Source of the DNA: Pomacea canaliculata
Lineage: Eukaryota > Mollusca > Gastropoda > Architaenioglossa > Ampullariidae
DNA length: 64,000 nucleotides
Direction: 5' to 3'
Assembly: GCF_003073045.1 (NCBI RefSeq)
Contig: NC_037597.1
Coordinates: 22,458,158-22,522,157 of the forward strand
How positions within the stretch are numbered: the stretch's first letter is position 1; each line of letters opens with the position of its first letter. Below are positions 8,910 through 23,287 of this stretch, piece after piece. A program made the translations under genes and the position numbers. A model generated the notes under the pieces. That model made no database searches and was not told the DNA's origin. It worked only from the letters and a program-made list of their open reading frames with translations.

Positions 8910-11582
8910 TTATCTCTCAGTAAGAATTGAATCAGTTATTCTGGAGTCTGGAGAATTTTCCCCCTCAGCTGTCTCTTCTACTTTCTTTTCATTGTCTGTC
9001 TTTTCATCATTCTCCACCTCTGAATTGTCTATCTCTTTCTCACTTTCCAAGTCTTCTTCATCAGAAGAGTCGTCATCTTCAACTTGCCTTCGATTGGTAT
9101 TAATCACCTTCAGCCCCAAATCTTCCTCGCCTTCAGAATCACTCGGAGGCAACATGTCATCTTGGACATAACAGTCTGTTTTTTGTTGCTCTAGCTGGAA
9201 CAAAGCTGGCCTGGAAGTATCAAGTAGAACTGGTAAGAGTTATTCACTTACTGAAACACATGCTGGATTCTGTACTCTCTATGACAAACATGCTTTCACT
9301 TTTTCACAAGCACTAACATTATCTACCAAGTTTTCCCTTCTTCAATTTTAAATCTTTAATAAGGGAGTTTACCAACTGATTATAATAGATGAAACTTAAG
9401 CATTCTTCATTTTCATGTAAAAAAAAAAAACCAGTTGAGATAAATCCCGATACATGTAAAATGGCACATGCTGATGGAGTATGCGTGACCTCTGACCCTT
9501 AGAAATTGAGTTTCATGGGCAAGTTTCAAAATCATTGGCACTCCATGAGTGAGCCATGTCTAGCTAGTATGTTTACAAGGCAATGTTTTGTTACACTTCC
9601 CACACAGACATGTACAATACTGAATATTCATGCCTGCATTCAAACACACACACATGCGTAAGCACATGTATGCATACAGACATACAAAAGCACTTGCACA
9701 CAAGATCACTCACACACAGACATACAAAAGCACTTGCACACAAGATCACTCACACACATATCCAAGAGCACTCACACATTTATGCACACAAAGGGACATA
9801 TGCATACAAGAGAACTCACACACACATATGCATGCACACACATTAGATTCCTTACCACAGACCCTGGTCTTGAATGTGCCTTATATGGTCCCGAAGAAGA
9901 ATGTGTACAATTTCAGCCCTCACTTTTTCACCTTCCTCAATAGGTTCAACAATCACGAAGTCTCCTAACCTCAACAGCCAAGATTCACCAAAATTATGTT
10001 TTACTTATAGTTAACATAACAGCCTGTCTTTAAAACATATGAATAAAAGGTGACACTGTGTTCATCAAACCTAAAAGTTTAAAGTTCCAAAAAACACAAA
10101 AAAGCAGAGAATGACTATTGAATAAACAGCACAAAGTTGCACACAAAAAAATAAAAATAAAAGGATGATTATTTTCTACATTCCCATCTCCCTCAACCCC
10201 CCAAAAAATTCCCCAATGACTACCAATCCAACTTCAAGGAGTGAACATCCTGGAAACAGATCGCTTCATGTATCTCGGAAGCATTGTCAACAAGGACGGT
10301 GGAGCGGACGATGACATCAAAATTCGCATCAATAAGGCCAGGCATGCTTTCAACAGCCTACGTCACATCTGGAACTCCCAAGCATTATCTTTCCGTAGTA
10401 AGACCCTCATCTTCAACACCAATGTGTCCTGGAGAGTGACAAACATCATCACCAACAAGCTCCAGACCTTTACCAACTGATGCCTTAGCCATATTCTGGG
10501 AAAAGATTTCCAACAGTAGCCTGTGGAAAAGAACCAACCAGAACACCACTAGCCAAGACATCAAAAAGAACAAATAGGGCTGGATAGGGCACACCCTGCA
10601 CAAACCAGCTGACACTATTGCCAAGCAAGTACTTGACTGGAATCCTCAGGGGAAGAGGAGAGTTGGGAGACCAAAGCAGACCTGGAAAAGAACAGCAGAA
10701 ACCGAGGCAAAGGACTTGGAACCACATGGGACCAACTCAGGAGAGCGGCGGGGGGCTGCCCAAAACCGGGTCCCCTGGTGAGGTGTTGTTGCGGCCCTAT
10801 GCTCCTCAAGGATTAACAAGGACCAAACTAAACAAACAAAACATGCTATTGACAGTCTTTTTCATTACTCCCCCTTCCTCCATCCAAGTTTGAGTAGTTT
10901 CCAGCTATGCTACAGCATTTGATTCTTGTGCTGCTCATTTGTTTAACTTCAAGCATAGTACTGAACATGCTTAAAACAGAGACCACTAAAAACTTATTTT
11001 TACTTTTATTGTTTAACAGTTATACGTAACACATGCTCTGAATTTGTTATTTTAAACTTACCTCTTTTGATCCAGACATTTTTGCGGAATTTTGTAGGCA
11101 TGCTCACAAGGTACTTTGTGCCTGTAGGATCTTCGACTTCATGCAAATTGTTTCCTCTGCCTCCCAATACCTTCAAAATCAAGTCAATAAATCAGAAGCT
11201 CAGTGTGTGGGAAAGAATGGTTGCTTGCTTGCTGGAGTTTTATGTTCTGCCAGCAACTAAGGCTCACAGTGTGAGATATCTTACATCGAAAGGGTGGTGG
11301 GGAGGGGGATAAGGCATACATGGACCAAAAAATGTTATATAACAAACCCCTTACTGTTGGAAAAACAAGGAAAAGCTCTAGACAATTTAACAAGCAGCCT
11401 CTCGCTTCTCTCAATCACACACACACAAATAGAGAGACGGAAAGACCAGAGGCACTATCTAACTACTACTGAAACCGCTATAGATGTTAGCATACCCTAA
11501 CAATGTCCTGCTTGCCACTTGGCAAAACATATTCGTCAAGAACTTCCCGCACTACATGTTTTCTTTTCGTGATTCTGGACAT
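8910..11582 (-). CDS. EIF1AD: EIF1AD, eIF1A-like S1/OB-fold RNA-binding protein (four coding exons)
   Basis: Coding exons on the minus strand are 11496-11582, 11062-11170, 9856-9964 and 8910-9210. Phases 0/1/2 agree across all three junctions and give 201 residues. The start [15 protein letters not shown] matches human EIF1AD (MSQATKRKHVVKEVL). It is followed by [27 protein letters not shown] and the family signature [10 protein letters not shown], which form the S1-like OB fold (about residues 6-105). The last exon is very acidic ([15 protein letters not shown]) and carries the INTNRRQ block that precedes the acidic tail in vertebrates; the tail is longer than the human one. The protein is a nuclear relative of translation factor eIF1A with a poorly known role. 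Its first intron is short; its second intron holds a LINE fragment and its third a 40 bp tandem repeat. The gene is divergent to BANF1. Confidence 0.96.
9640..9842. repeat. CA-rich microsatellite with an exact 40 bp tandem duplication
   Basis: Within EIF1AD intron 3 the unit beginning catacaaaagcacttgcaca starts at 9681 and again at 9721, a period of 40 bp, embedded in degenerate (CA)n. The overlapping His/Thr-rich open frames here are a by-product of the repeat. Confidence 0.85.
10225..10840 (+). mobile_element. LINE fragment: C-terminal end of a non-LTR reverse transcriptase ORF and 3' end
   Basis: The frame starting near 10229 reads [20 protein letters not shown], then [17 protein letters not shown] and [10 protein letters not shown]. 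These are the thumb-region motifs of non-LTR reverse transcriptases (F-x-YLGS, KARxAF, KxxIFNxxV). After a small internal deletion and stops, other frames continue with the usual tail: [22 protein letters not shown] and [11 protein letters not shown]. The 3' end is near gaccaaactaaacaaacaaa. The copy lacks the endonuclease and the RT core, so it is 5'-truncated and dead. It lies antisense in EIF1AD intron 2. The clade is uncertain; RTE-like is my best guess. Confidence 0.8.
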
Positions 11583-13266
11583 TATCCAACTGTTGTATTC
11601 AACGGTTTCTCTGCAACATAATGTTAACATTTATAATAGTGAAAGTCACTATTAATAACATCAATAAAAAAAGAGATCTTTTTAAAAATGTTTTTCAGCT
11701 AAAATTAATCTCTAAACAGTTTCTCACTCACGAAATTTGACCGCCGAAGTGACGTGTTTGCATTTTGTAAGGTGACCAGACGTCCCGCATTTGGTGGGAC
11801 AGTCCCGCTTTTGACCTCGTGTCCCGCCTGAATATCGGGCGGGACGCCCAATGTCCCGCTTTCTGGCAAGTCCATCAAATGTCCCGGTTGTCTTTAAAAA
11901 TCACTTTTTTCGGCGTTCTTTGACGGTGACGACACCATCATCGGCTCGTGTCCCGCTTTCGCCTCCGAAACGTCTGGTCACCTTACATTTTGTCATTTGT
12001 TTATGGGGATGTACAAGAATCTGTTTTACAGTTCACCTATGCGTGCGTTTCACAATAACTGTATGATTTTTTAGTTTGACAAAATGTTATTTACTTCGTC
12101 CTACTGTCTGGCGTGTCCACACTATGAGCACGAACTTATATCCCCACGTCCATGCTATGAGAGTGTTCCGTCAGTATGTCTCACCGGATAATAATTAAAA
12201 TTAAAACAGAAAGTAGCTTCAATCAAATATGACTTGTATTTATTTTCATAATATTTTTTCCATAAACAACACATAGATAACACAACCGTACCAATGACCA
12301 AAGTATAAAACCTACCCTAGAACAGCGAATAGCCACTGTAGCGAGACAAATGTTTCACTCAAACCGGAAGTAAAAATACAAATACTGTATTTCAAAAAAT
12401 CTGAATGAAATACTTTCCCTTTTCTGTTGGTTAAAAATTTTTATTTATATCAAATAATAAAAATTATTCTACTTGACATAAAATGCTATTTTATATTAAT
12501 TATACAAAATCATTCAAAATAATTAAGAATTTTGATATAGCTTCATTCCTTTTCCTTTTTCCGTTTGTAATAATCCTACAAATGCGACAGCGCGCCAGGC
12601 AAAGTGTGAGTTCATAGCTGGCATTGGTGTGGATCATTTCAGAGGTGTAAAAGGTTCTTATCTGTCTCATTGACGAATCTCATTGAATCAGGTAGTGTCC
12701 ATTTTTTAACAGTATGATTTTTTTTAGTTAGTTTTTATTTCTTTATGTTCCAGAGCTTAATTGTTTGGTAGTAGTTTTAGTGGCTAAGAATAGATCGTAC
12801 AGATCCATTTCAACTTTCATTTTAGTGCCTTATAATATTATAATTATCTTTTATTAAGTCTAATAAAATTATTTAGAATTGTCAGTAGGTATTCTACATG
12901 ATGCTCTTAATTTGAATTACTCAATATTTACTTTTGCAAGGAATTCAGTGTTACTGTATGAGAGAAAAATAAACAGCATGTTATGTGGTAACTTCTAAAT
13001 TAAACTTTGAAACGGTGATCGTAGACTAAACTTAAGTAGTCTTACGGTTCAGATTATTAGGTTGATGCAGATAAAATGAATATCTTACAAAATATCTACC
13101 AAGCCGTGTAAGTGTCACTTTTTGTATAGATTTAAATTTTGTTAACAAGGCCAAAGATAAACTTAAGATGAAGAAAAAACTTATTCACCCAATAGTTAAG
13201 CGTATTTTTTAGATGTTCACCAACAACTGCTCCTGTGATTTTTATTTGATTTTTTAAATCAGCAGC
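11583..13266. promoter_or_regulatory. Shared 5' region between divergent EIF1AD and BANF1
   Basis: The two start codons are 1.7 kb apart and point away from each other. The stretch holds a GC-richer patch with a CRE-like aagtgacgtg near 11746, an ETS-type ccggaagt near 12364, and a GC-rich patch near 12585-12600 (gacagcgcgccaggc). A plausible BANF1 5' UTR exon could end at a donor at 12644/12645 (agag|gtgtaa), joined to the acceptor at 13263-13265 just before the ATG. A MITE has inserted at 11769-11985. Start sites are not directly visible. Confidence 0.5.
11769..11985. mobile_element. Non-autonomous DNA transposon (MITE), hAT-like, with target-site duplication
   Basis: The 217 bp element begins aaggtgaccagacg and ends cgtctggtcacctta, a 14 bp perfect terminal inverted repeat. 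It is flanked on both sides by cattttgt (11761-11768 and 11986-11993), an exact 8 bp target-site duplication, which is the size made by hAT transposases. The interior is GC-rich with repeated gtcccgc and codes for nothing. The intact duplication and perfect ends suggest a rather recent insertion, about 190 bp upstream of the EIF1AD start codon. Superfamily rests on duplication length only. Confidence 0.85.
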
Positions 13267-14071
13267 ATGACAACTTCGCAGAAACACCGCAACTTTGTGG
13301 CAGAGCCCATGGGAGAAAAAAGTGTCCAGGAACTTGCAGGGATTGGTGATGTTCTTGGCCAACGCTTAAGCGAAAGAGGTTTTGACAAGGTGACTAAATT
13401 TTATATAATATGTTGATTTGAGTAATTTCAAACATATGTGTTGATAACATCAAACTGATGATTTCTTCAAGTTGTTTAGGCCCTTTTTGAACATCCTGGC
13501 ATCTTTTTCACATAGAAAAAGCTAGCAGTTCTTCTGAATTATCTGTCAGAAGCCTACACAAATCCACATGTAGATTTATTTTAGATATCAGAATAACCAA
13601 GTGCTTTCCCCTTCATGTTTTTAATTTAATCTTGTTTTCGTGCCTTGTTCTTCATCGGTGAAGTGTACTTGTAGCTATGATTGTGAAGGACTGTAGGGAC
13701 AACATAGCTGTAGTTTCCTAGTATGGAAAAATTGATGGCCATTGTTGAAAATAAAGCTTTATGTTTACTGCAGTAAAAATGAAGACAGAAAATCGCTTAG
13801 TTTTATATCACATTTAAGGGTTCTCTGCTAGATTACAGTCTTTGAGTTTTCTAATTGTTTAGTTTCCCTGTGTTCTGCCTTTTAAAGAAAGAAGTTGTTA
13901 CCAATTTTTGATTGTTCTTTGCAGGCATATGTTGTCCTTGGTCAGTATTTGGTGCTAAAGAAAGATGAGGACTTGTTCAAGACTTGGCTGTATGACACTT
14001 GCAATGCCAACAAAAAACAGCAGAATGACTGTTACCAGTGTTTGAAAGAGTGGTGTGACTCATTCTTGTAA
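13267..14071 (+). CDS. BANF1: Barrier-to-autointegration factor BAF (two coding exons)
   Basis: Coding exons are 13267-13389 (41 codons, donor aag|gtgact) and 13925-14071 (48 codons plus TAA), joined in phase 0 to give 89 residues, the same length as human BAF. The N-terminus [18 protein letters not shown] is nearly identical to human. Known functional positions are kept: T2, T3 and S4 (VRK kinase sites), K6, H7 and R8 (DNA contact), G25-I26-G27 of the helix-hairpin-helix, G47 (dimerisation), L58 (LEM-domain binding), and C67, C77, C80 and C85. BAF dimers bridge double-stranded DNA and link chromatin to LEM proteins and lamins during nuclear assembly. The start ATG follows an acceptor (aaatcag) by three bases. 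A poly(A) signal with a GT-rich tail lies at 14602. Confidence 0.98.
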
Positions 14072-16955: not shown

Positions 16956-17146
16956 TATACACCACAATACATGGACATTCTGTTTCATTTTATTCATTTA
17001 TCCTTCTGTATTTCCTTCTTTCGCTTCATCCTGTTTTAAACCGACTTTGATGCTGTTTGTTTTCTTCTGTTCCAGTGGAACAGTTTATGCATGCATAAAG
17101 TATTTACTATTTTTGATTATAACATTTTCCCCCGTGCAGCTACACT

Positions 17147-18975
17147 ATGAGTTCACAAGTGAAACTCAGACGGTTCCTGTCGGAATTGATGGGCAACAAG
17201 CCGGTAACCGACGTACCTGGCATCGATCTGGAGGTTGGCAGGCGGTTACGGCAAGCAAATATCTATTACGTAAGCACTGAACTTTATACCATGTCATGTG
17301 CATAGTTGGCAGTGATGTTGTATTTGACAAGTGATAGATTGTGTGAATGTAGAGCACGGAGGTGTTGCTCGTAAGGCTTTACCATTGTTAATTGCAGGAA
17401 TAATAACAATAGCATTCACTACAATATGATTGTGATGATTTCTACTGTCCAGTATAACACATTATGTAAGTGGGTCCGCTGCGCACATGAGTAAAAAAAT
17501 CCATAGTAGTATAAAAACGGATGTTAATATACTGAAAAACACAAATAAACAAAGCTTAAGCAAAAGAACAATATAAGCATAGCATTAATATTTGTACGAC
17601 ACGTGTGGAGTAAATATCCGTTGGACTAAATTATTAACCGCACCATTCAGAAACATTTCCTAAATCTTTAATTGCTGTAAAACTGCTAAGAGTCAGGACT
17701 GTTGAGAGAAAAACATGCATTAAGTTATAGCAGTCTCGATCATTGTGGGATTTGGACAGTGAATTTTCTGTCTGCCTTTCTTTCCTTCGTTCGTTCGTTC
17801 TTTCCCAAGACTGATTGTGTTTGTTCCAAGAGAAAGGACACTTTATGTTTACCTGAAAAAAGGCTGTTGATAGTAACTAAATGAGCAGACCTGTGTACCC
17901 TTAGAAAGACCAACTTGTGCATGTTTGCTTTCAGAAAAATCATGTCATCCCATTCAATGTGTTTCATCCACTGCAGCTCAAGAAAACGCATCGTTTTGGT
18001 CGTAGCCAGAACTCCTGTAATTCTGATAATTTTCTGTAATGATTATGATAAACACATTCGGGTAAACAGATCTGAATGAGATATCTCGTCTTTTTGGTGG
18101 GGATTTGGGGCAAGGATGAGAGGGACACCATCCATGCCAGCCTATTTGATTTACTATGGATTGGAGTTATTTCCCTTAGTATACCAGTCGCCTGGATTCC
18201 TCGCGACGTAAAGTACAGTCGGCGTTCCGCGTGCAGAGAACGTTCCCAGTTAAACAGTGCTTAGTCCGCAGTTCTTTTGCACGCTGAAATTTTTTTTTAC
18301 TAAATGTAAACTGATAATTGGTTGGATATATTTATGGTAGTAAATGACACAATATATTAATAGTACATCTATTTATGCGACATAATAAAGTTTGTTACTT
18401 CCCTTTTTAGTCTAGCGCTTCGCGTGTGATTTTCCTAAGCAGGCCTCAAAACTTAAAAATTAAAAAAGTTTCATTTAATTAATGATAACAATTGTTTAAA
18501 CCCCCGAATAATCAAAACATCGAAAGTAGTACCAGTTATGCAGGTCAAGGGGTGGCATGCATTAATTTGTTGTCGTTTAATTGTGTTGTTTGTTTGGTTT
18601 GTTTGTTGTTGTTTTTTTGGGGTGGTGGTGGTGGGGGGGGGGAGTTGTCTTTTTCTTTTTTCAATGTGCAAGAGCGCAAAACTTCATTTCAGGTCAATTA
18701 TAGAAGATACTGTTTCCCAATATTGGAATGAATATTTTCCTTAGATCTAAACTTTGAACAATGCATCATCATCATCATCGATGTTGTCGTCATAGTCTTA
18801 GCCATTATTTTCCATTGTCTTTTTTCAGGCTTACTCCTTGCTGGGACAGTTCTTGTTGTTCAGAAAAGACGGGATGAGATTCATTGCGTGGCTGAAGACT
18901 GTCTCTGGCGCCAGTAAAGTGCAGCAGACCGAGTGCCATCACGCTCTTAAATCGTGGTGCGATACGTTTCTGTGA
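17147..18975 (+). CDS. Divergent BAF paralogue (two coding exons)
   Basis: Exons are 17147-17269 (41 codons, donor tac|gtaagc) and 18829-18975 (48 codons plus TGA). The product is 89 residues with an intron at exactly the same codon and phase as BANF1, so this is a DNA-level duplicate, not a retrocopy. It begins MSSQVKLRRFLSELMGNKP and ends ALKSWCDTFL. Relative to BAF it keeps K6, R8, F10, G25-I26, G47, C77 and C85. It differs at H7 (Leu), G27 (Asp), L58 (Arg), C67 (Ser) and C80 (Ala), and has Ser at 2 and 3 with Gln at 4. An Arg at 58 is known in human BAF to block LEM-domain binding, and G27 is part of the DNA-binding helix-hairpin-helix. The reading frame is intact and third positions are more GC-rich than in BANF1, so it looks functional and diverged. 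Human BANF2 is a comparable divergent copy, but common descent is not shown. Confidence 0.93.
18619..18645 (+). repeat. G-rich run in intron of the BAF paralogue
   Basis: ggggtggtggtggtgggggg and following Gs could form a G-quadruplex on the transcript strand. It lies in a T/G-rich intron about 180 bases before the second exon. Confidence 0.7.
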
Positions 18976-19436: not shown

Positions 19437-19442
19437 AATAAA
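19437..19442 (+). terminator. Poly(A) signal for the BAF paralogue
   Basis: AATAAA about 460 bases after the stop codon; first canonical signal downstream. Confidence 0.45.
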
Positions 19443-20426: not shown

Positions 20427-20933
20427 TTGGTTTAGTCCTTGCTACTTGATCCTTGAGGAGCACAGGGCCGCACCACCACCTCGCCAGCGGACCCAGTTTG
20501 GGGCAGCTCCCTCAGGCCCATGTGGTTCCGACGTCCTTTAGCCCCGGTCTCTACTATTCTTTGCCAAGTTTTGGTATCATAACTCTCCTCTACCCCTGAG
20601 GATTTCAATCAACTGCCTGCAATGGTGTCAGGTGGTCTGTGTCCTATCCAGCTCCAATTGCTCTTCTTGGTGTCTTGGCTAGTGGGATTTTGGTTGTTTT
20701 TTCCCCACAGGCTTCTGCTGAAAATCTTTCCAGGCCATCTAATTTCCAGGATATGGCGTAAGATATGGTAAAGGTCTGGAGCTTGTTGTTAGTGGTATTT
20801 TTTGCTCTTCAAGTTTCAGAACCATAGAAGGATGATGGAGCGGACGATAAGCCGCATCAACAAGGCCAGGCATGCTTTCAACAGCCTAAGCCCCATCTGG
20901 AACTCCCGAGCATTATCTTTGCTCAGCAAGACC
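20427..20933 (-). mobile_element. LINE fragment with 5' inversion, same family as 10225-10840
   Basis: From 20427 to about 20826 the minus strand carries the LINE 3' part (gctcctcaaggat end, GKxxVxRPK-type tail region, ctccagacctttacca). From about 20828 to 20933 the plus strand carries the segment that lies just upstream in the LINE (gatggagcggacga through aacagcctaa to agcaagaccc). The inverted piece abuts, in element coordinates, the start of the 3' piece, the arrangement produced by twin priming. A clear target-site duplication was not found. The copy is short and broken. Confidence 0.75.
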
Positions 20934-23287
20934 CGCGTGTACATATAAAGGCAGTGAACTTTAGGTATAGTTAGGGGGTGACGTGTCTCTGATCAATCTG
21001 ATATCAGTGTAAGGGTACCCACAGTTATATTTCCCACCATGCTCTTTTTGAAGCATTCTATACTCCTCTCCCTCTCCCGATCTCCTTTTCCCCACCCAAC
21101 CTTAGACTCTTCGCTAGACTAACCCCCACACTTCCCAGGTTAGGCTGTTAAAAGAGTTTTTGGCCTTTGCGTGATAAATATGCATAACAAGCGTAAAGAA
21201 GTGACTGCTTATTGCGCTTCCTGTTCTAAATGAAGAACCTAGACAGCTTAGGTTTGAGCTTTGAATCCGACTATGGGTGTAAGGTAAGGAAGTGTAGATC
21301 GTATTACAGTTTGGACCTTCTTTGTGCGTCTATGGCAGGTCTGACCATTTCAGTCTTTTATTTGGACTCTACATGTTGAGTCATATAAACTTTATCGAAC
21401 TGGGTTTTTTATTTGGTCAGAACAGCACTTTCTTAAGATAGCACCTTGGTGGGACTTTCCTATTTGTTATACAGATGACTTTCACAATGTCGGACTGTCC
21501 GTCGTTTAGAAAGCATGTGCATGCGGACTCTGTGACTGAAGACCACACTCTGAATGATATAGACTTGCTTGATTTATTTTTAAATCACACACAACCTGTG
21601 TTTATTGTAGGTGATTTTTTTTCTCACTTCACCAGGTAACTCAAATAAAATGCATGTATCAGTTTCCTTGATCGTACCACGCAGGACTATGTTATATCTG
21701 AAGAAAGGTCTGTTGCAAACTGCTGCTTTCACACACACCCCATCACCACCACCACCACCGGTACCATGATGTGTGAAGCAAGACAACCACGCAGATTGTG
21801 TATTCCGCAGCTGCGAAAAGGAGGGATGCATCCATTTTCGCTATTTCATTACACCATCGACACTGAATTAGTTACGGTCTGAAACGTTTGGTTCCGTAGT
21901 TCTTTTATGTTATAGAAATAGTGATAAAAAAATATGAAAGTAACAATAAATAGTGCACACGTTTGTAGTGTATTTAGGATCATAAATATGTTCCCTGATT
22001 GTATTTAGACATACAGCACACACCACGGTTATTAAATGTTCTATATCGTGTCTCCGGATTCAACTGGCGCTCGAAACGGATACCGGGGCGTATACTTATG
22101 ATCCTGTTCACCGTCATTGTCTGACCTTTCGACCTATCTAAGACGTCCCGTGTCATCTCGCGGCTACTGTCCCACTTCATACGTCACATCAACCTCAAAT
22201 AACATTAGTTTATATATTTTATCGGTCTCGATCGACTTCAGACAAATATTTTCGTCTGGACGAACAATCCGACATATACACTGTTTGAGTTACGATCGAT
22301 CGAGTATAGGATATGCAGTCAAATGTTTATGGTCACCTCGATCTTGTTCGGCAGACATTAAGTATCCGATCTGCCAAGTTACATCAAAAGAGAGAAAAGG
22401 GGGAGAGGGAGGAACGATCTATGGCGGTCTATTGAGGACGTCCGGCCATTGTTTAACAATTTGAAATTTAAGAAAACTATATAATAGACCTTTTCTAGAG
22501 CTAGCCGCAGTTTGCATGACCTACGACTCGAGTAGCTCATGAGTTTCTTAAAAATTTGAGGCAGATGGGTTAGTCTGGATGTCAATTAACTCATCACTAA
22601 ACGTGTATTATACTGTGTATTTCCAATTGTATGTTTAGGATTCATTGTCCCATCACCACCTAAATTATTCGAGTTATCATGACCACACACGCGCGCGCAG
22701 CGGACTGATAAGTGAGGCGTTCAGATATTAACTGCGTTCTCTGGTCGCTGTGCTGAAAAGGTACGGTAGAATAGTCCCTTATCTTAAATTCGATCTCTGC
22801 CGGCATAAATAACATTCTATAGAGCGGTTGCCCTGTTGCATTCTACTGTACCGACAGCCTGCACACGTACGTGCGTGCGATGTTTTACCTGAAGAAACGT
22901 AACATAATAATTCAATTTTTCGTAAATGATTTCTTCAATCACTATTTTGAGATTAACGTTTAAAAATATCAGGAGGAAACGGCCATTAAAGATTAGCGCA
23001 ATCGGTTTTGTGAATCAAGTTCAGGGACGAGATAATGCGTTCCTGGTGACCGGGAAGTAACTCTTACCTCATGGCGGCTTTTTCTGTTCTTTTTTTAACG
23101 CGAGGGAGGTAATCGACGAGGAAGTCTTGGCAGACGAGCTGAGTATTCGTCGACGTCGCACAGCGAGAGGTGGACCAGTGGCTATGGCTCCACTTACTCT
23201 GGCTATAAGGTGAAAAAAGGTATTCAAGGCTGGGTAGGAGTGAGGATTACTTCGCAGACTGCAGTCGTCAAGACAGCTTCTACCCAC

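Follow-up and report, generated by a model that had tools for sequence, protein, structure and literature searches.

A 64-kb stretch of Pomacea canaliculata DNA (called the window below, meaning the whole stretch that was analysed) carries two BAF genes on the plus strand, BANF1 and a BAF paralogue located about 3 kb downstream. The paralogue encodes Arg at position 58, where the BANF1 of the window has Leu. As described in PMC10668030, the exchange L58R selectively blocks LEM binding of BAF and serves as a laboratory tool for separating LEM binding from the other functions of the protein. The question raised by this locus is whether the snail gene encodes a natural BAF form uncoupled from LEM proteins, and which other properties of BAF have changed along with residue 58.

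Organization of the tandem BAF locus

The features of the two genes are listed here with their positions in the window.

13267-14071, plus strand: BANF1
13267..13389, plus strand: BANF1, coding exon 1 (gene model, SAM_BAF)
13925..14071, plus strand: BANF1, coding exon 2 (gene model, SAM_BAF)
17130..17139, plus strand: likely 3′ splice site of the paralogue, ccccgtgcag, just 5′ of the start codon (recognized by eye)
17147..17269, plus strand: paralogue, coding exon 1, codons 1-41 (gene model, SAM_BAF, genome match L004)
17225..17227, plus strand: paralogue, codon 27, GAT, Asp replacing the DNA-contact residue Gly27
17270..18828, plus strand: paralogue, intron, GT...AG, phase 0 after codon 41, position as in BANF1
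18829..18975, plus strand: paralogue, coding exon 2, codons 42-89 and TGA (gene model, SAM_BAF, genome match L003)
18844..18846, plus strand: paralogue, codon 47, GGA, Gly, kept
18877..18879, plus strand: paralogue, codon 58, AGA, Arg
19437..19442, plus strand: AATAAA, candidate polyadenylation signal of the paralogue (motif only)

The sequence-only reading had described a second BAF gene in tandem, aligning with BANF1 without gaps over 89 residues, with Arg in place of Leu at position 58 and with G47 kept. All of this was confirmed. The paralogue consists of two coding exons on the same strand as BANF1 and matches the Pfam family SAM_BAF (PF02961) with 94.1 bits over profile positions 3-88 of 88, i.e., as a full-length domain above the curated cut-off of 25 bits; codon 58 is AGA compared to TTG in BANF1, and codon 47 is GGA. 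Both genes encode products of 89 amino acids, and the BANF1 protein of the window is identical to P0002 (Pomacea canaliculata).

BANF1 contains a single phase-0 intron after codon 41, matching that of the paralogue, and a possible splice acceptor ending at 13262 was recognized by eye ahead of its ATG. The acceptor before the start codon of the paralogue suggests a 5′ UTR intron, as before the ATG of BANF1. Human BANF1 also has a splice acceptor in its 5′ UTR, as evident from the variant c.-16-1G>C reported in PMC6459885. Since the two snail genes share the intron and both start codons are preceded by possible acceptors, the paralogue arose by DNA duplication and not by retrotransposition. In the marmoset BANF2 record P0185, residues 41 and 42 are separated by an insert, which is consistent with an intron placed as in the snail BAF genes.

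When the whole genome (440,159,624 bases in 24 contigs) was searched with SAM_BAF, four exon matches were obtained, two for BANF1 and two for the paralogue; the published P. canaliculata genome is described as 440 Mb with 14 chromosome scaffolds (PMC6129957). Within the 64-kb window, a search for tRNA genes found none, and no Rfam family matched at the gathering score. Similar short frames recur at 10220-10890, 20432-20608, and 20793-20948 of the window, with one 11-residue string present in two places; they resemble pieces of a dispersed repeat, which might be a retrotransposon. Upstream of BANF1 and on the opposite strand, positions 9852-10004 (minus strand) contain an EIF1AD-like exon matching PDB entry 2dgy (E 2.1e-12) and the human EIF1AD in 6zxf (E 4.1e-12). 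In human, too, EIF1AD and BANF1 are head-to-head neighbours, which would make them an old gene pair.

Coding capacity of the paralogue and searches for relatives

In the gap-free alignment, 37 of 89 amino acids (42%) were identical between the paralogue and the BANF1 of the window, and 37 of 89 were identical between the paralogue and human BAF. The coding sequences of the two snail genes shared 51% of their nucleotides, with 41, 30, and 59 differences at codon positions 1, 2, and 3, respectively. As a null model, we used 4000 unselected simulations starting from BANF1, in which substitutions only were introduced along one lineage until the nucleotide divergence was equal to the observed one. 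A stop-free frame was left in 67 of the 4000 simulations, and the best amino acid identity was 32/89, compared to 37/89 for the real paralogue. As the simulations never reached the observed identity, the frame of the paralogue is not due to chance. The dN value for the two genes was 0.53, whereas the program returned no valid dS, as expected for saturation. The frame of the paralogue evolved under protein-level selection over much of its history; its present expression is a separate matter.

Public protein sets searched with the paralogue protein gave no match, neither an orthologue nor a transcript. The same sets include P. canaliculata BANF1 (P0002), which came from NCBI, UniRef, and nr sources only, and the read-derived sets are therefore uninformative on expression of the paralogue. 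Moreover, 39 of the 197 listed family proteins share at least three 5-residue words with the paralogue and were nevertheless missed in this search, so that a moderately similar orthologue could have escaped it. With a paralogue-biased query, none of the best 120 of 187 matches exceeded 50% identity. A search for BAF in viral contigs yielded nine pattern matches, of which none was confirmed, and a search of the open-licence literature gave no title reporting a mollusc BAF paralogue.

Residue 58 and the ligand surfaces

The paralogue was aligned with 197 proteins obtained from two lists, the best 120 of 1618 matches to a family-alignment query and the best 120 of the 187 matches to the paralogue-biased query. 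These rows comprised 30 mammalian BANF2 proteins, recognized by a sequence motif and by name, the protein P0136, which was set apart, three fragments, which were dropped, and 163 BANF1-type proteins; many are near-duplicates, and row counts are thus not independent. In P0001 from the krill Meganyctiphanes norvegica, the N-terminal half of BAF is present twice in tandem, the second copy without the first residues, perhaps by fusion in the gene model or by exon duplication.

At position 58, the 163 BANF1-type rows among the matches listed contain Leu (139), Met (21), Phe (1), Cys (1), or Asn (1), which means Leu or Met in 160 and a charged residue in none. Because Met alternates with Leu, the position is less than 90% conserved in these rows. 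With Arg58, the paralogue lacks the hydrophobic residue of canonical BANF1. Ile is found in the dropped fragment P0194. The mammalian BANF2 rows listed have Glu58 in 29 of 30 cases and Ala58 in one, which is from pika. The mussel Dreissena polymorpha is represented by two proteins, P0045 with Leu58 and the second BAF-like protein P0136 with Arg58. A natural change at position 58 is thus not unique to the snail: among the matches listed, a charged residue occurs in three duplicate lineages (snail paralogue, BANF2, P0136) and in no BANF1-type row. The site is not lost in every BAF duplicate, since Leu or Met is retained in all 15 listed rows with an LSGIG motif, of which 13 are named as fish. 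On the tree described below, charged and uncharged states at position 58 switch at least four times, which we read as three gains and one loss, the latter in pika BANF2.

For the ligand surfaces we relied on the contacts given in PMC6459885, i.e., R37, F39, Q48, V51, L52, L58, E61, and W62 for LEM binding, K6, G25, G27, V29, and L30 together with S4, Q5, A71, and R75 for DNA binding, and V11, A12, P14, E83, D86, A87, and F88 for the lamin Ig-fold. To these we added K72, which was used in a K72E construct and described as salt-bridge partner of phosphorylated Thr3 (PMC8053085), and the VRK1 sites 2-4. Compared to human BAF, six of the eight LEM contacts differ in the paralogue (R37A, F39I, V51L, L52F, L58R, E61A) and only Q48 and W62 are kept, whereas one of eight differs in the BANF1 of the window. 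Judged from their occurrence in 18, 25, and 6 of the 163 BANF1-type rows listed, A37, L51, and F52 may be harmless; I39, R58, and A61 are found in none of these rows. With respect to DNA, the paralogue shows the changes S4Q, Q5V, G27D, V29E, and L30V, further A71K and R75T at contacts where the BANF1 of the window also differs, and K72V at the added site, and it keeps K6 and G25. The residues Q4, V5, E29, V30, and V72 are absent from the 163 BANF1-type rows listed and D27 is present in one.

Positions were regarded as conserved if at least 90% identical in the BANF1-type rows, and thresholds of 80% and 95% were run as well. By the 90% threshold, the paralogue is altered at two of four LEM, five of seven DNA (four of six without K72), three of four lamin, and two of two VRK positions, and in its DNA contacts it departs from canonical BANF1. 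Ser4, the main kinase site, is among the altered residues; its phosphorylation was suggested to be sufficient to lower the DNA affinity of BAF strongly (PMC8053085). The idea that Arg58 alone represents a LEM-specific loss was set aside, as the LEM surface is no more altered than the DNA or lamin surfaces.

At the 90% threshold, the paralogue was altered at 11 of 16 ligand positions and at 8 of the 32 remaining positions (Fisher p 0.0052). The corresponding values were 12/18 and 13/38 at 80% (p 0.042) and 6/11 and 7/30 at 95% (p 0.073). When K72 and kinase sites 2-3 were left out and the published contacts used by themselves, the values were 9/14 and 10/34 at 90% (p 0.049), and p increased to 0.137 at 80% and 0.241 at 95%. 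The test was devised after the sequence had been inspected, and the enrichment at ligand sites is fragile. In the control, the BANF1 of the window, 0/16 ligand and 0/32 other positions were altered, and there was no enrichment in BANF2 (7/16 and 10/32) or P0136 (1/16 and 3/32).

In the dimer helix, the paralogue retains A42, Y43, L46, G47, Q48, F49, and L50 and shows the changes K41Y, V44S, V45L, V51L, and L52F. According to PMC13040421, the dimer contacts of BAF include residues 44, 45, and 47-52; as V44S affects one of them, dimerisation of the paralogue is not assured. The net charge is +6, compared to -1 for the BANF1 of the window and -5 to +3 for the BANF1-type rows listed, which leaves non-specific DNA binding possible and could even rescue DNA binding of the paralogue.

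Origin, competing explanations, and relation to known BAF forms

A tree was calculated from 112 of 198 rows after thinning at 88% identity and removal of fragments; with 89 columns, its bootstrap was unsettled. The paralogue was placed on an end branch of 2.33, and no neighbour was supported. By path distance, the rows closest to it among the matches listed were four molluscs and one further row, whereas the highest identity of the paralogue there was 49%, to the fish row P0134. The BANF2 rows formed a separate clade with a stem of 2.41, and P0136 paired with Dreissena P0045 (97/79). Holding the paralogue together with BANF2 cost 38.1 log-likelihood units (AU p 0.029, for 89 columns and two long branches). 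Neither a grouping with P0136 (cost 28.1, p 0.171) nor one with P0002, Littorina P0099, and P0018, which groups with these two (cost 9.1, p 0.346), was rejected. The pairing of P0136 with P0045 and the disfavoured grouping with BANF2 make the changes at position 58 look independent, and separate origins of the snail paralogue, BANF2, and P0136 are favoured, which is suggestive only.

At positions 7, 11, 12, 23, 29, 45, 51, and 76 the paralogue has the residue found in most BANF2 rows and not the one found in most BANF1-type rows. Because of these eight shared residues, we considered common descent, i.e., that the paralogue is a true orthologue of vertebrate BANF2 stemming from an old animal duplication and lost in most lineages. 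An approximate version of the human BANF2 sequence shares 43% of its residues with the paralogue, which points in the same direction. Given the result of the clade test, and given that a placement next to three BANF1-type rows from the snail's own group is not rejected, we regard this descent as very improbable. Even less credible is that positions 18829-18975 serve as an alternative last exon of BANF1, which would combine the normal N-terminal DNA residues with Arg58. Strand and phase agree, and the hybrid would be in frame because both introns are of phase 0 after codon 41, but the paralogue is equipped with a separate BAF-like exon 1 that has a start codon and is preceded by a splice acceptor, and a last exon is likewise present in BANF1 itself.

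The explanation that we prefer, tentatively and at somewhat less than an even chance, is that the paralogue is a functional, fast-evolving tandem duplicate of BANF1 whose product forms dimers and acts as a ligand-poor modulator of BANF1. The protein would fold and dimerise, as most dimer-helix residues are kept. It would neither tether to LEM proteins, if such partners exist in the snail, nor bridge DNA normally, and its DNA binding would probably be weakened. By forming dimers with BANF1, or by associating with chromatin proteins, it would modulate BANF1, perhaps in a tissue-restricted manner in analogy to mammalian BAF-L in testis. Arg58 would introduce a charge into the hydrophobic LEM-binding surface as one of several uncoupling changes, and the gene most likely has an origin separate from that of mammalian BANF2.

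Alternatively, the duplicate might simply drift under weak selection, with Arg58 being incidental. With 52 of 89 residues differing from BANF1, a change at any one site is unsurprising, and the end branch of 2.33, the protein-set searches without an orthologue, and the fragile enrichment at ligand sites fit such general relaxation. On the other hand, the frame is open, the splice sites are intact, the amino acid identity exceeds that of all 4000 unselected simulations, and at the 90% threshold just 8 of the 32 conserved positions outside the ligand sites are altered; we consider drift unlikely, although a serious competitor. The sequence-only reading had proposed a form untethered from LEM proteins that binds DNA, for example in the cytosol, or acts as an antagonist. 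The first part has held up as a reasonable prediction, since no BANF1-type row among the matches listed carries a charge at position 58. The second part has lost ground: that Arg58 removes LEM binding only and leaves a membrane-free, DNA-bridging BAF, a cytosolic binder, or an antagonist would agree with the selective effect of L58R (PMC10668030), with the retention of K6 and G25, and with the net charge of +6. Against this, five of the seven conserved DNA contacts are altered, including G27D and K72V (four of six without the added K72), as is V29, where Glu as a further acidic residue occurs in none of the 163 BANF1-type rows listed. Together with the three of four altered lamin contacts, this favours a ligand-poor, BAF-L-like form over a dedicated cytosolic DNA binder, and we judge the DNA-bridging alternative distinctly unlikely for the snail. 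Its pattern fits P0136 better, which combines R58 with seven of seven conserved DNA residues.

A more general proposal, which we consider possible though doubtful, is that BAF duplicates repeatedly and independently become uncoupled from LEM proteins via a charge at position 58 (Glu in BANF2, Arg in the snail and in Dreissena). If true, LEM tethering and DNA bridging would be separable in nature, and untethered partner subunits would be a recurrent regulatory design. Repeated evolution of proteins with a charge at position 58 would demonstrate that animals exploit the division of functions for which L58R is used as a tool. Such proteins would also be ready test material for studying how untethered BAF subunits affect the assembly and repair of the nuclear envelope. 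Compared to P0136, the snail paralogue is a less clean case, as its DNA and lamin sites are altered, too.

Among known forms, BANF1/BAF shares with the paralogue the gapless SAM_BAF domain, the intron position seen in the window BANF1, Gly47, K6, G25, W62, and most dimer-helix residues; it differs by an identity of 42% and by the many LEM, DNA, and lamin contacts and the Ser4 altered in the paralogue. BANF2/BAF-L is likewise a divergent BAF duplicate with a charged residue 58 and altered DNA sites 27, 29, and 72. Most of its DNA-binding residues are described as unconserved, and it was proposed to regulate BAF via dimerisation instead of binding DNA (PMC2770119). Homo- and heterodimers of Banf1 and Banf2 are cited in PMC8268354, PMC8877947 reports interaction of BAF-L with H3, H4, and protamine 1 and no DNA binding, and BAF-L was detected in the spermatid nucleoplasm and in ejaculated sperm (PMC6008938). 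In contrast to the snail protein, BANF2 has Glu58 instead of Arg58 and keeps P14 and E83 in 30/30 and S4 in 28/30 of the rows listed, and a grouping of the two in the tree is disfavoured. P0136 of Dreissena polymorpha is, like the paralogue, a mollusc BAF duplicate with Arg58. Unlike the latter, it is 84% identical to the Leu58 protein P0045 of its own species and keeps all seven conserved DNA residues, and the location of P0136 and P0045 on different contigs is an arrangement unlike that of the snail pair. In addition, P0136 carries Lys at positions 57 and 44, the latter being a dimer contact. Engineered BAF L58R carries the same residue at the same site as the paralogue, but there it is the sole change in an otherwise normal BAF.
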